Origin: Streptosporangium sp. NBC_01755
GTDB lineage: Bacteria > Actinomycetota > Actinomycetes > Streptosporangiales > Streptosporangiaceae
Direction of reading: 5' to 3'
Assembly: GCF_035917995.1 (NCBI RefSeq)
Contig: NZ_CP109131.1
Span: forward strand, 1,302,001-1,366,000
Length of the DNA: 64,000 nt
Numbering within the stretch: position 1 is the first letter of the stretch; every line of letters begins with the position of its first letter. Below, in pieces: positions 58,746 through 62,727 of the stretch. Made by a program: the position numbers and the translations under genes. The notes beneath the pieces were generated by a model. It saw only the letters and a program-made list of their open reading frames with translations. It was not told the origin of the DNA and did not search any database.

Positions 58746-60590
58746 TCAGAGCTGCTCCTCATCGCCGCCGCTGGCGAGGTAGTTGGCGTAATCGGCATAG
58801 TCCTCGGCGGTGAGATCGCCACCAGACAAGTCACCGAAGTCCACGTCCCCGACGGACGGGGCGGGAGCCGAGGGGATCCCCCATTCGGCGCCAGGCGCGT
58901 ATCCAGCTGCGGCGTCACCGGCCGGGTCGGGCTTCCAGTCTGCCTCAGACTGCCAGCCGGCGGGGACGACTTCGACTTCCATATGCCATTTGCCGCCGGA
59001 CTCGTACACGTCGTGCACGACCCAGGAGGTATTGCGGTCGAGGAGCAGTTCCCGCTCGTCTGGGTACCGGCTGATCGGCATGGCGTTGATCGCGTGATGC
59101 CCCTCAGGGACACGTAGCATCAACCTGATCGGCTTGTCGTCAAAAGCCGCTTTGCCGCCCGCCGAGGTGGAGACGTAGGCGTCCTCGCTGGCCACTTTGC
59201 CGATCAGGGCGCGCATGCTGGCAGGGTCCTTGGTATCAGCGCCGAGCCGCTTCACGTAGTCGGCGCCGACGCCGCGGTGCACGATGACGTCCTCAGGCAC
59301 CACGGACTTCGCCATGGCCGCGTCGATGCCGTCGATACGGGCCTGAACGTCAGGGTCGCGCTTTTCGTCGGGGTTACGCAGAGCGAAGTTGATGGCCCGG
59401 TAGTTTTCGCCGGTGTAGTTTTTCACCGCTGCCCGATCAGCAGCGGTGAACGGCTTCTTCTTCGGCGACCCCATCCGCTCGTTGAGCCAGTCGGTGCCCT
59501 CAAGGCTCGTGGTGTGGCGGGTGGCGTCACGCATGCCGGGCCGGCGTGGCTCCCCGGGGGATGCCTGTGCTGGTGCTTCAGGCGCCTCGGGTGGCTTCGG
59601 GGCCGCTTTGGAATCGGCGGCTTTCGGCTTAGACGGAGCATCCGGGGCATTCTTGGCCGCTGTCTTCGCTGCCGGTGCCTTCGTAGCCGGAGTCTTCGGC
59701 GCCGAGTCAGTCGCGTCAGCCTTGGATGCGGCCTTGGATCCGTGCGGCACGAACTCCATCCGCACATGCGGGACGCCGTTGTTGTCCTCTACGGAGACGA
59801 CGCGGTACTTGCCTGACGCCGGGAGAATCATCTCTCCGCCGTTCCCCACCGCGGCCTTCGTGCCAGCAGGGAGGGTGACCTCCACCGTCGCGCCCTTGGA
59901 CGTCTTCTTCGGCGTGAGGGACGTGGACACGTGGCCCTTGTCTCCCATCACGTCGCCCGGCTTGAGACCAGCAGCCATAGCCGCGGTCATCGTCCGGTGC
60001 ACCGTCATCGGCTCAGTTGTCGGCGGAGCCTTACGTAGAGCGTCGTTGAGTTGCCGGTTCGCTCGGGCGGCGCGGGCCATCTCGTCGGCGCTGTACTTGT
60101 CGTCCTTGACGCCGTTCTTGCCTTTGCTGCGCAGCTCGGCGTTCATCAGTGCGTAGTCGGCGTCCTGGTAGCCGCTAAGAGCCTTACGCTGCGCTGGGGT
60201 GAGGGAGCCCCGCCATTCCCCGTAGTGGTTGTCCAGCCACGCCTGGTCTTTCGCTGCCGGAGAGGCGGCCTTCACAGCAGGCGCCTTCTTGACCGCAGGC
60301 GCCTTCTTCGCAACGGGTGTCGGCTTCGCCGCAGGAGTTTTCTTCGCTGCGGGGGCGGGCTTGCTGGCAGCGGCCTTAGCGGCGGCGGGCTTGGCCGCCG
60401 TGGGCGTGGCAGCCTTACCGCCGGTCGTCTTCGCCGACGCCGACGCCGACGCCGAAGGCTTGGCCGCGCCGGCACTGGGCGACGACCCGCCCGACCCGAA
60501 CTTTCCGTCCTTCGCTCTGGGGTGCAGATCCTCGCGCCAGATGCGCTCCACCAGGTCCCACGCCTCAACGAGGCTATGACCCTCGTACAT
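58746..60590 (-). CDS. Virion protein with two ADP-ribosyltransferase domains
   Basis: 614 residues from ATG 60590 (GGAGG upstream). Residues 18-31 carry the WREDL...GKF tag, then an Ala/Lys/Pro linker (about 40-110). Domain 1 (about 115-285) has Arg199 (VHRTM), STS at 222-224, but GGE (251-253) in place of ExE. Domain 2 (about 370-545) is canonical: Arg439 (VHRG), STS 474-476, ExE 512-514. These R-S-E enzymes transfer ADP-ribose from NAD to proteins or nucleic acid. It lies beside MuF, where some phages carry MuF-fused toxins delivered with the DNA. Confidence 0.85.
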   Translation of the reverse strand: MYEGHSLVEAWDLVERIWREDLHPRAKDGKFGSGGSSPSAGAAKPSASASASAKTTGGKAATPTAAKPAAAKAAASKPAPAAKKTPAAKPTPVAKKAPAVKKAPAVKAASPAAKDQAWLDNHYGEWRGSLTPAQRKALSGYQDADYALMNAELRSKGKNGVKDDKYSADEMARAARANRQLNDALRKAPPTTEPMTVHRTMTAAMAAGLKPGDVMGDKGHVSTSLTPKKTSKGATVEVTLPAGTKAAVGNGGEMILPASGKYRVVSVEDNNGVPHVRMEFVPHGSKAASKADATDSAPKTPATKAPAAKTAAKNAPDAPSKPKAADSKAAPKPPEAPEAPAQASPGEPRRPGMRDATRHTTSLEGTDWLNERMGSPKKKPFTAADRAAVKNYTGENYRAINFALRNPDEKRDPDVQARIDGIDAAMAKSVVPEDVIVHRGVGADYVKRLGADTKDPASMRALIGKVASEDAYVSTSAGGKAAFDDKPIRLMLRVPEGHHAINAMPISRYPDERELLLDRNTSWVVHDVYESGGKWHMEVEVVPAGWQSEADWKPDPAGDAAAGYAPGAEWGIPSAPAPSVGDVDFGDLSGGDLTAEDYADYANYLASGGDEEQL

Positions 60591-60642
60591 GTCGACACTC
60601 CCTCCCTGGTGAGCCGATATGCGGCGGAGGTTTTCTGGCAGG

Positions 60643-62727
60643 TCAGGTACGTCGTTGTTTGGCGATGCGTTCCAGGTCGCGGACAGGTCTCGCCCCGTAG
60701 GAGTCACGCCACCCGGAGGTGGTGCGTAGCTGCGGAAGGTCGGCCCAGTCGATGGCGCCGGAGTCGAGGAGTTCCAAGCGGCGAGGCCCCATGATGGCGA
60801 GCTGCTCAGCCCGGGACAGCCCGGCGAATACCTCCGGCCCGGTGGGGATGTGATCGTCGGGCTCGTCGATGTCGAAGCCGAGGTCGGCCCAACCCTTTGT
60901 CTTAGGAGTCCGTGAGCATCGGCAGTTATGTACTACGATCCCGTTCGCCAGGTACCAGCCGGTCGAAGTCTGGAGATTGTAGACATGCCCCCTAAAGCTT
61001 CTGCGGCGGACATCGAGAACGCGGTCGCTGACTACCTCGCCGGCGAAGGCGCTGAGGCTGTCGCCGCTCGGCACGGGACCAGCCAGTCCCGACTCAAGGC
61101 CATCCTCGTCGAGTGCGGCCAATGGCGAACGCGAGAGCAGACCAACGCCTTCAGGGCCCGAAGGACTAGCGCCGGACTGCTCGCTCGATCCGACCTCCCA
61201 ACATCTGAGATCGTTCGGCGGTATCAGGACGGCGAGTCCGTCAACGCTCTCGCCCAAGCCTTCGACGTATCCCGCAGAGCGATCGAGCTGCGGCTTGTCA
61301 ACGCTGGAGTCGAACTGCGATCCATCAAAGACGCCAACCGACTCCTGGCCTCCAAGCGCACGCCGGAGGAAAATGCCCGCCTCATACGCGCTGCCCACGC
61401 CGCCACGCGCGGTGTCCCCATGACCTTCGAGCGGAAGGCCAAGAGCGCCGCCACGCGCGAACGCCATCAGGTGTTCGTGACGCCCACAGAACGCCACCTG
61501 GCCGAACTTCTGACCGATCGCGGTTGCGAGGTCACGCCCCAGAAGGCCGTGGGTCCGTACAACGTGGACATCGCTACCGGCTCCGTCGCCGTGGAAATCT
61601 TCGGCGGCGGTTGGCATGCATATGGCGTCCACCGGGCCAGATCCGCCGAGCGATTCCGCTACATCCTCGATCAGGGCTGGAACCTGGTGATCATGTGGGT
61701 TGTCACTCAGCGCTGGCCCCTCAAGGCCGAGGCCGCAGACTACATCGCAGCCTTCGCGGATCTCACCCGCCGGGATCCATCCATCCGTGGTCAGTACCGG
61801 GTGATTTGGGGTGACGGTAAGGAGTCGACCTCCAACGGTCTGAATGTCGACGACCTCTCCGCTATGCCAACGCGTAGTGGACGCAAGCGCCCGGGGCCCC
61901 GACACCAAGGCGCCCGCGACTAGGCACTGCTGGTGCCCGTATGGGCCTGGTTCCGACAGCGGATGCATGGTTCCGTGCAGGGCAATGCAAGCTGGACACG
62001 TCCTGCCGCGGCTGGCATTAAGTTCCGCATGCCAGATCCAGCCGTCCAGGACGGCGGCGTGGTCTTCCTGGCCGATCTCAGCGGCTCGGCGGTGGCTGTC
62101 GATGATCTCGGTGCGGGCCAAGTTCAAGGCTCTCGTGAGGCCACCGTTGAACTCGCCTTCCAAGTTGCGGAGCATCCTGGCTGCCGCGGTGCGCGGGTTG
62201 TCCCCCACGACGACGCCACGGATCAACTCCTGCTTCATCCGCTTGGTGGCCTCGTCGGCGAGTGGCCAATGCTTGGCGTTGATCTGCTCCGCTGTGCGGC
62301 GCACGATCGCGTCGATCGTGTCGGGCAGCTGCCTGCGATACCGGGCTGCTGCCGCAAGCGTCGACCCGTACGGCAGTTGGGAGGCGATCAGGTCACCCTG
62401 GCCATCCAGTGCGATACGAGCCGCATCCTGGGCGCCGGCCACGGTTTGGGTGCGGACCAGGTCAGCGAGACGGGTCAGAGCGGCGGCGATGACGTCGAGG
62501 GCGGACATGGCGCGGGCGGTCTGCTCGACCTGCCGGCGGGACGGCCACCCGCCCTCCCCTACTTGGAGAAGCTCGGTGATGCCCGCGGCGACCTCTAACG
62601 CCATCTGGTCCCAGGCCCTCACCCAGGCTTGCACCAGGGATCTGGTGACGTCGGCGAGGATCGAGCCGACCGCGCGCCGCATCTCCTCAACCAGGCGGAT
62701 GGTGTCGGAAGTGATCGGCATGACCAC
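60643..62727 (-). CDS. MuF-type minor head protein interrupted by an intein
   Basis: 694 residues, 360 after splicing. The extein halves are residues 1-267 and 602-694. The MuF domain shows RALNLARTEIIDSHRRAAE, WHAELNASRGRTCPACIALHG and, across the junction, GHQQ-CRC, the conserved end motif. The intein (268-601) is inserted just before the first Cys of CRC. GTG at 62727 follows the portal stop by 6 nt; an ATG two codons on is an alternative. The protein sits at the portal and helps DNA ejection; splicing is required for a native product. Confidence 0.88.
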   Translation of the reverse strand: MVMPITSDTIRLVEEMRRAVGSILADVTRSLVQAWVRAWDQMALEVAAGITELLQVGEGGWPSRRQVEQTARAMSALDVIAAALTRLADLVRTQTVAGAQDAARIALDGQGDLIASQLPYGSTLAAAARYRRQLPDTIDAIVRRTAEQINAKHWPLADEATKRMKQELIRGVVVGDNPRTAAARMLRNLEGEFNGGLTRALNLARTEIIDSHRRAAEIGQEDHAAVLDGWIWHAELNASRGRTCPACIALHGTMHPLSEPGPYGHQQCLVAGALVSGPRALASTTRWHSGEVVDIQTVGGRLLTVTPNHPVLTTDGWIPAGEIREGCDVVCGLGLEGPALSDNPHDHQVPALIEDVAESLGGSGPVDAICMPTAAEDFHGDGAGSDVHVVRTHGLLGRDLATAIGQKFGQVAFCGRHEHLMAFARGGALGLPLEGHGDTARGGVGSAYEAGIFLRRALGGQESVGVFDGSQFDSSVDKPQLDRSAGYVEGLGESVDGLAVLIPPNDLRCWEVGSSEQSGASPSGPEGVGLLSRSPLAALDEDGLESGLAGPVPSGDSLSAFAGEVVSDRVLDVRRRSFRGHVYNLQTSTGWYLANGIVVHNCRCSRTPKTKGWADLGFDIDEPDDHIPTGPEVFAGLSRAEQLAIMGPRRLELLDSGAIDWADLPQLRTTSGWRDSYGARPVRDLERIAKQRRT
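60925..61926 (-). other. Intein in the MuF protein (334 residues)
   Basis: Begins with Cys1 (CLVAGALVSGP, block A), has block B TVTPNHPVLT with the TxxH His at residue 42, and ends with block F GHVYNLQTSTGWYLANG and block G VVHN, followed by Cys+1. All standard splicing residues (Cys1, block B His, His-Asn, Cys+1) are present, so it should be active. No LAGLIDADG or HNH domain occurs in the intein frame. The whole middle instead lies antisense to the nuclease gene at 60985-61923. Confidence 0.92.
60985..61923 (+). CDS. Vsr/DUF559-like homing endonuclease, antisense inside the intein
   Basis: 312 residues from ATG 60985, with GGAG 9 nt upstream; the frame itself opens at 60928. Two HTH-like segments come first (about 15-45: VADYLAGEGAEAVAARHGTS; about 75-110: IVRRYQDGESVNALAQAFDVS). 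The C-terminal nuclease domain (about 165-280) has TPTERHLAELL, YNVDIA, VAVEIFGGGWH, then RFRYILDQGWNLVIMWV and GQYRVIWGDG, the Asp-Glu-His pattern of Vsr-like PD-(D/E)xK nucleases. It should cut intein-free muF alleles. The TAG stop pairs with intein codon 2. Confidence 0.82.
   Translation: MPPKASAADIENAVADYLAGEGAEAVAARHGTSQSRLKAILVECGQWRTREQTNAFRARRTSAGLLARSDLPTSEIVRRYQDGESVNALAQAFDVSRRAIELRLVNAGVELRSIKDANRLLASKRTPEENARLIRAAHAATRGVPMTFERKAKSAATRERHQVFVTPTERHLAELLTDRGCEVTPQKAVGPYNVDIATGSVAVEIFGGGWHAYGVHRARSAERFRYILDQGWNLVIMWVVTQRWPLKAEAADYIAAFADLTRRDPSIRGQYRVIWGDGKESTSNGLNVDDLSAMPTRSGRKRPGPRHQGARD

Follow-up and report, generated by a model that had tools for sequence, protein, structure and literature searches.

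A putatively mobile phage intein and its predicted homing endonuclease on the opposite strand of the same DNA

The window analysed here is a stretch of 64,000 nucleotides from Streptosporangium sp. NBC_01755 (NZ_CP109131.1, positions 1,302,001 to 1,366,000), and the element in question is an intein at 60925-61926 on its minus strand, inserted in a MuF-like phage head morphogenesis gene, with a second, codon-aligned reading frame running antisense through the same nucleotides. With a probability of about 0.9, it is regarded as a mobile phage intein whose homing endonuclease, carrying a helix-turn-helix (HTH) part and a nuclease domain of EDxHD/Vsr fold, is encoded antisense to the intein itself; EDxHD is the name given to the I-Bth0305I/Vsr-type nuclease class. 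Computed support is shown by selection on both frames, a conserved architecture, translation signals, intein-free alleles, a co-conversion footprint in the flanks of some members, and the predicted domain folds. The two-strand arrangement recurs in many different phages, and it is probable, with somewhat less confidence, that an entire lineage of inteins in tailed phages uses both strands of the same ~1 kb for coding, with intein block F doubling as ribosome-binding site and start of the nuclease, and that the two together withstand the endonuclease loss that is otherwise usual, because the ends of each protein are coded by conserved parts of the other. A preliminary description of this DNA had given the same interpretation, with the right coordinates for the intein and its codon-aligned antisense frame, and that interpretation is supported, none of the three refuting conditions named there being found to hold.

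In the proposed mechanism, the minus strand, in frame with the MuF head gene, would yield a Hint-fold intein that presumably excises itself from the head protein, and the codon-aligned and nearly coextensive plus strand would encode the separate HTH + EDxHD/Vsr-fold homing endonuclease. The ribosome site and start codon of the nuclease are the reverse complement of block F, its stop lies within 32 codons of Cys1, and it would be transcribed from a plus-strand promoter of its own; a sigma-70 consensus scan of one Salmonella phage locus found no plus-strand promoter. The nuclease would cut an intein-free MuF allele, and repair would copy in the element together with some of the flank, i.e., homing. 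The nuclease could keep its sequence with the intein frame open because, under the genetic code, the aligned antisense is the one register that allows all intein-strand stops (TTA, CTA and TCA in nuclease codons) to be avoided by synonymous choice of Leu and Ser codons.

Conservation of, and selection on, the two reading frames

Across homologues, the open intein frame is overwhelmingly beyond chance. The nuclease was found by tblastn in 128 of 50,697 phage records, with hosts including Salmonella, Gordonia, Pseudomonas, Klebsiella, Vibrio, Acinetobacter and Haemophilus, and one motif gave 282 stretches in IMG/VR, of which 80 were kept. Three HTH-only loci (L014, L028 and L029) are within a first count of 94 but not in the set of 91 distinct nuclease loci (GC 36-71%), and the intein frame is open opposite the nuclease in 90 of these 91, as well as in 6/6 further phage loci. 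In the matched stretches of the 90 loci, not one stop interrupts the aligned antisense frame over 24,886 codons, and none of the stretches is open in any of the four other frames, whose means range from 6.8 to 15.9 stops per stretch; among loci below 50% GC, the intein frame is open in 21/21, compared with 1/26 neighbouring-gene windows open by chance. TTA, CTA and TCA in the nuclease frame are stops on the intein strand; 460 are expected from neighbouring codon usage in the 91 loci of this test, which may include up to three HTH-only matches later dropped, and 11 were seen. All 11 lie in L124, where 9.9 are expected, and without it 450 are expected and none is present. L124 is Acinetobacter phage IME285, in which the nuclease is a free-standing gene convergent with an adjoining intein-less MuF gene (L124:455-2055); since this free-standing gene carries such codons at the expected rate, their avoidance belongs to the overlap and not to the enzyme. 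The L124 arrangement is possibly an ancestral or escaped state. The BUCT629 and P1068 records hold a nuclease 100% identical to that of L124. Among bacterial genomes, the nuclease occurs in 1/16 of the same genus, namely the window's own, and 13/341 family genomes match at E ≤ 0.001, of which, besides the window's own, only G157, G154 and G087 go beyond short matches, mostly to the HTH region; a narrower scan of genome contigs gave 3 loci.

The bearing of homologous inteins on the antisense frame, raised in the preliminary description, was followed from the intein side. With the N-terminal 70 intein residues alone as the query, which overlap the last ~60 nuclease codons, an aligned antisense nuclease was present in 80/80 loci kept (72 distinct, 58 new), these being the best 80 of 565 relatives and hence a sample of this lineage, not of all inteins. 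The nuclease core is without a stop in 79/80, and the one stop counted, in L159 (end not located), precedes its start codon. The distinct loci thus number 149, i.e., 91 (90 antisense) and the 58 from the intein-side search. In three short inteins of 183-191 residues (L166, L178 and L189), a deletion that preserves both reading frames has taken out the nuclease HTH region together with the intein linker, and the catalytic part is kept. Stops in the nuclease frame were counted in 22/94 first-counted matches; by inspection they precede the block F start or sit in the last codons, L096 being ambiguous, and those of the later phage loci L129 and L133 are also near the C-terminus. A reading of L096 as a decayed nuclease was withdrawn, an in-frame ATG lying four codons on, past the stops. 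The inteins of L041, L042, L044 and L054 begin with Ala (RAE/KAE/YAE), not Cys1, which suggests that they may use a different first splicing step.

Both reading frames are under selection. In this codon geometry, the third position of a nuclease codon faces the first position of an intein codon, and the first faces the third. The codon-position test was run on hand-picked pairs, 21 of the 22 planned (L117 has no located intein end; L088 and L108 were left out), and codons falling in different segments in the two sequences were excluded. In the middle of the element (mid2+3), nuclease third positions diverge more than first positions in 21/21 pairs (0.561 vs 0.351), a nuclease-type constraint that bears out the purifying selection on the plus frame on which the preliminary description had made its claim depend. 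At blocks G/F the pattern is the reverse in 20/21 pairs with one tie (0.170 vs 0.419), and the intein pattern is found at blocks A/B in 19/21 pairs and in the exteins in 17/21; mid1, the first quarter past block F, is mixed (5 with the nuclease pattern, 3 ties and 13 reverse). In mid4, which lies next to block B at about intein residues 50-115, opposite the nuclease catalytic domain, divergence is low at all positions (0.322, 0.144 and 0.378), with the nuclease pattern in 14/21 and a second-position value of 0.144 compared with 0.276 in mid2+3, as would be expected if both proteins are under constraint there. The mutual constraint is tight at the two ends, where ~93 C-terminal nuclease codons face the folded N-terminal Hint part, and where the first codons and the Shine-Dalgarno (SD) sequence face block F. 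As stated earlier, the overlap reaches functional parts, His42 of block B being antisense to the YRVIW strand and the nuclease start lying in block F.

The nuclease likely starts at ATG 60985, since homologues keep an NTG at this position (ATG 48, GTG 8, TTG 1 and AGG 1 among 58 aligned homologues, window included) and several carry in-frame stops between the equivalents of 60928 and 60985. The frame had been described as opening at ATG 60928; it is indeed open from there to TAG 61921-61923 (331 codons, exactly codon-aligned with the intein), and the 312 residues given earlier fit the start at 60985 with its GGAG and 9-nt spacer, and 60928 was rejected as the start on account of the stops in homologues. 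In the 312-aa form, intein residue r faces nuclease residue 315-r, and the TAG lies opposite the CTA codon of intein Leu2. An end of the intein was located by pattern in 83/91 loci, a start in 78 and both in 74 (the ends of L088 and L108 are misplaced), block F being unlocated in 7 loci and misplaced in 2. An NTG stands opposite the block F residue in 75/83 loci with a located block F; the remaining eight comprise two misplaced motifs and six loci with an in-frame NTG 2-6 codons away (L003, L085, L090, L096, L099 and L108). GGAG precedes the shifted NTG of L003 and the TTG of L090, and it appears that the start can shift.

An SD-like match of at least 4 nt is present in 71/83 loci. Opposite the SD stand the block F Leu codon and the one after it. 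This Leu is CTC, the antisense of GAG, in 55/69 loci, where extein usage predicts 15.3; among loci in which CTC is otherwise rare, it is CTC in 26/32 vs 3.0 expected. The nuclease stop lies within the intein, 2-32 codons from Cys1, in 72/74 loci with both ends located, the exceptions being L012, at the boundary, and L061, 3 codons into the N-extein. The block F motif probably came first, because GHIYDL is present at block F of the KlbA intein as well; for the same reason, the idea that the block F His is imposed by the nuclease start was dropped. The antisense of the common motif GH[VI]YDL is close to a ready-made SD and ATG, and this may be how the arrangement originated.

The window locus and its host genes

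The features of the window locus are collected in Table 1. The Cys1 codon of the intein is 61924-61926 and its terminal His-Asn is 60925-60930, the extein junctions reading GHQQ/C...VVHN/CRC (slash, junction). Cys1 and T39-PNH42 of block B are both present, as are block G and the Hint fold, and intein-free alleles at a conserved site are shown in Salmonella phages. In the alignment of 55 inteins (the window and 54/60 references), H42 is invariant, C1, T39 and N41 are conserved at ≥90%, and N334 is invariant under a selection pattern that itself requires N before C/S/T; PF14890 is matched by 51/55. The Hint parts of the AF2 model have a pLDDT of ~90 or more, Foldseek ranks Mtu RecA mini-intein structures as the closest matches (prob 1.00, E from 0.0013 upwards), and the intein profile matches PDB inteins at 1e-9. 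A group I intron as the host element was rejected, an Rfam scan of 60500-62200 giving no match and the element being a protein-coding intein. An intein-less homologue of the MuF gene is found in Arthrobacter phage TripleJ, to which the two extein pieces align at 46% identity; the CxC motif was not found in the TripleJ gene.

The nuclease was described earlier as Vsr-like, and both its profile and its fold match I-Bth0305I and Vsr, the closest solved relatives including the homing enzyme I-Bth0305I. It is modelled at pLDDT 91.4 with a Vsr-like PD-(D/E)xK catalytic fold and conserved acidic residues. HTH_28 is matched at 6.7e-7, above the cut-off, and MTES_1575 at 4e-6, below the Pfam cut-off; MTES_1575 is matched at E ≤ 0.001 by 57/63 aligned nucleases (the window and 62/74 references), at best at 1.5e-10. 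Among these 63, D195, E204 and G207-G208 are invariant and E169, W210 and H211 are conserved at ≥90%; which of the acidic residues are catalytic is assigned tentatively from this conservation. A phmmer search of the whole window nuclease against the PDB gave nothing, and structural relatives emerged with the 63-sequence profile, the top match of which (2lvs, 1e-5) is to the HTH region, outside the nuclease domain.

Table 1. Features of the intein-bearing gene and its antisense nuclease, in window coordinates
Feature	Position	Strand	Evidence or remark
MuF-like head morphogenesis gene with intein	60643..62727	-	Phage_Mu_F E=0.0016, below cut-off
N-extein of MuF-like gene	61927-62727	-	
C-extein of MuF-like gene	60643-60924	-	
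Intein, 334 aa, Cys1 to His-Asn, then Cys+1	60925..61926	-	PF14890 (Intein_splicing) E=1.1e-8
Intein block A (Cys1 and adjoining strand)	61888..61926	-	
Intein block B TPNHP (His42)	61798..61812	-	Antisense to nuclease strand 271-275 (YRVIW); H42 invariant
Intein block F GHVYNLQT	60967..60990	-	His codon 60985-60987 is antisense of nuclease ATG
Intein block G (NGIVVHN)	60925..60945	-	TIGR01443 match
Intein linker, residues 146-293, predicted disordered	61048..61491	-	pLDDT <50 nearly throughout; antisense to nuclease HTH part
Antisense nuclease CDS, predicted, 312 aa, ATG to TAG	60985..61923	+	
GGAG Shine-Dalgarno, 9 nt upstream of ATG 60985	60972..60975	+	Antisense to block F Leu-Gln codons
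Nuclease central helix-turn-helix, residues 73-106	61201..61302	+	HTH_28 at 75-100 of the 312-aa form; modelled helices
Nuclease catalytic domain, Vsr/EDxHD fold, residues 162-279	61468..61821	+	VIA-align 162-279; MTES_1575 169-239
Conserved putative catalytic motif, D195 (YNVD) to H211 (VAVEIFGGGWH)	61567..61617	+	Alignment of 63 nucleases
Doubly folded overlap, nuclease residues 220-312 vs intein residues 3-95	61642..61920		Both models confident over most; constraint in both frames

A scan of 77 N-exteins matched Phage_Mu_F in 50, VG15 in 12, portal in 5, minor capsid protein 2 in 4 and dCMP deaminase in 1 (L008). Ten more families had one or two members apiece, and a single member may be counted under more than one family. 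In L008 (Virus Rctr197k, 616-1968), the intein and antisense nuclease lie in a dCMP/cytidine deaminase gene, within the PCxxC zinc motif, and the record says head morphogenesis. Of 19 phage records with the nuclease opposite the host gene, only PK2 has a CDS on the nuclease strand there, labelled hypothetical; annotation overlooks a widespread phage nuclease. Adjoining the MuF gene in the window is a 653-aa prophage open reading frame (58746-60707, minus strand) with an ADP-ribosyltransferase domain (PF03496, 2e-46, two stretches); NAD+-asparagine ADP-ribosyltransferase is the annotation given to some head genes of Salmonella phages.

Mobility and the alternative explanations

Salmonella phage head genes are found both with and without the intein, 391 records matching the sidste gene, 58 of them over at least 80% of its length. 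The genes of sidste and S142 differ by exactly 272 codons (816 bp) at HPN/C, where sidste reads HPN/C...HN/CRST and S142 reads HPNCRSS. Their exteins are 94.7% identical overall, but identity falls to 71% in a tract between -120 and +60 nt relative to the site and is 100% (rounded) over what remains of the stretch compared. Across this tract, the identity of sidste to Snoke, an intein-bearing E. coli phage, is 91%, compared with 76% elsewhere, and that of UPWr_S5 to Snoke is 90%, compared with 75% elsewhere; sidste and Snoke share 95.7% identity in their nuclease-matching DNA. Outside the tract (head genes L007, L218 and L120), the sidste and UPWr_S5 genes resemble those of intein-free Salmonella phages, and PK2, the third intein-bearing Salmonella gene, has no foreign tract; the footprint is thus present in 2/3 tested. 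Such a foreign flank tract of ~180 nt would be the footprint expected of double-strand-break repair with co-conversion after transfer from a Snoke-like donor. An intein with a 0.8-kb homing endonuclease is reported to be behind variation in a minor head protein (PMC7468147).

The flank footprint raised the homing explanation and lowered the possibility that both proteins are real and co-encoded while the nuclease serves another purpose, such as a phage DNA-binding regulator or a competitor-excluding nuclease; the HTH-rich architecture and a weak PADLOC match to PDC-S37 (E=0.0077) would suit such a role, and cleavage by the nuclease is a prediction. However, the nuclease travels with the intein in 90/91 loci, intein presence and absence together with the foreign tract are seen in Salmonella phages, I-Bth0305I is among the closest solved relatives, and the free-standing L124 gene adjoins an intein-less MuF gene, so that a role other than homing is improbable. 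It is unlikely, if less so, that a real nuclease gene merely lies opposite an intein loop that could be dispensed with, the intein frame being passively open with no dual coding of two folded proteins. The intein residues 146-293 are indeed predicted to be disordered and vary at intein first positions, and three inteins do without the loop. The intein frame must nevertheless be kept open, and the 450 expected stop-making codons are absent (L124 excluded); moreover, the nuclease start and SD sit in block F and its stop near Cys1, and nuclease residues 220-312 face the folded Hint N-part. Second-position divergence is 0.144 in mid4 vs 0.276 in mid2+3, as would be expected if both frames are functional. 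The earlier remark that the nuclease would be impossible to lose without harming splicing went too far for the linker, which L166, L178 and L189 have lost in both frames; what stands is the tight constraint at the ends, and rare loss fits the sample.

Two further explanations deny that the plus frame is a working gene. It could be a spurious antisense frame of a GC-rich intein gene, resembling a nuclease by chance, and taken alone the window weighs on that side: its nuclease has 22 Leu and 18 Ser codons, giving 1.42 expected antisense-stop codons and a probability of 0.23 that none occurs, and 15/69 neighbouring-gene windows above 62% GC are open by chance, so that its open frame is weak evidence, not beyond chance. 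The nuclease and HTH profile matches, the pLDDT of 91.4, the open frame in every low-GC locus when hardly any neighbouring window is open, and the nuclease-type constraint in all pairs tested leave this explanation with almost no credence. The nuclease could also be a decayed fossil, kept open through selection on the intein frame only; an NTG is missing at the block F position in 6/83 loci (two misplaced motifs set aside), and the activity of the window's own enzyme is predicted. This is very improbable, because divergence is highest at nuclease third positions in 21/21 pairs, a pattern that selection on the intein alone could not produce; the invariant D195, E204 and G207-G208, the SD codon bias of 55/69 vs 15.3, the absence of a core stop in 79/80 inteins selected by N-terminus, the one counted preceding its start, and the position of the stops in the 22/94 matches, before the start or in the last codons (L096 ambiguous), also speak against it. 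No clearly decayed nuclease was seen in samples drawn by similarity to intact members.

Relation to known systems

Few examples are known of opposite strands that encode two conserved proteins along almost their entire length, and these are disputed. Support for the dual-strand claim made here comes from 149 distinct loci, from avoidance at the codon level, from a free-standing gene that serves as a control and from substitution patterns that depend on position. The antisense intein and nuclease offer a natural system for measuring how far one sequence satisfies two folds, add to the ways in which inteins carry their homing enzymes, and bear on the homing-cycle question of why endonucleases usually get lost.

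With canonical inteins that contain an in-frame homing endonuclease (PI-type LAGLIDADG), the element shares Hint blocks A, B, F and G, a conserved insertion site, an endonuclease gene inside the intein and presence/absence polymorphism. In those inteins the endonuclease lies in frame between blocks B and F, whereas here it is a separate protein of Vsr/EDxHD fold that has a start of its own, is read in codon-aligned antisense and occupies the opposite strand in 90/91 loci, and the centre of the window intein is predicted to be disordered. In split inteins with Vsr-like EDxHD free-standing endonucleases, the nuclease lies between the split intein halves; the nuclease superfamily and the phage and environmental setting are the same, but here the nuclease is antisense to a contiguous intein. 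I-Bth0305I (PDB 3r3p), which shares the Vsr fold, was deposited as 'Mobile intron protein', whereas the present nuclease shares nearly all of its coding DNA with a protein-coding intein.

In the open-access PMC literature, none of the titles, abstracts and passages covered reports a nuclease gene that runs antisense to the intein holding it, subscription literature and preprints being outside the scope of this search. Inteins in capsid morphogenesis genes of Salmonella and E. coli phages have been described for UPWr_S gp15 (PMC8425127) and vKMB36 (PMC11162368), and the KMB36 and UPWr_S5 records hold the same head-gene inteins as are treated here; the portions of these two accounts that were covered make no mention of an antisense nuclease. 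Antisense homing genes occur in nuclear rDNA group I introns (I-DsqI, Dir.S956-2) and are expressed from the opposite strand (PMC9548176), so that a homing gene antisense to its own splicing element is common to both systems. The host there is a self-splicing RNA with the gene in a peripheral segment and nothing dual-coded, whereas here both strands encode proteins over ~1 kb.

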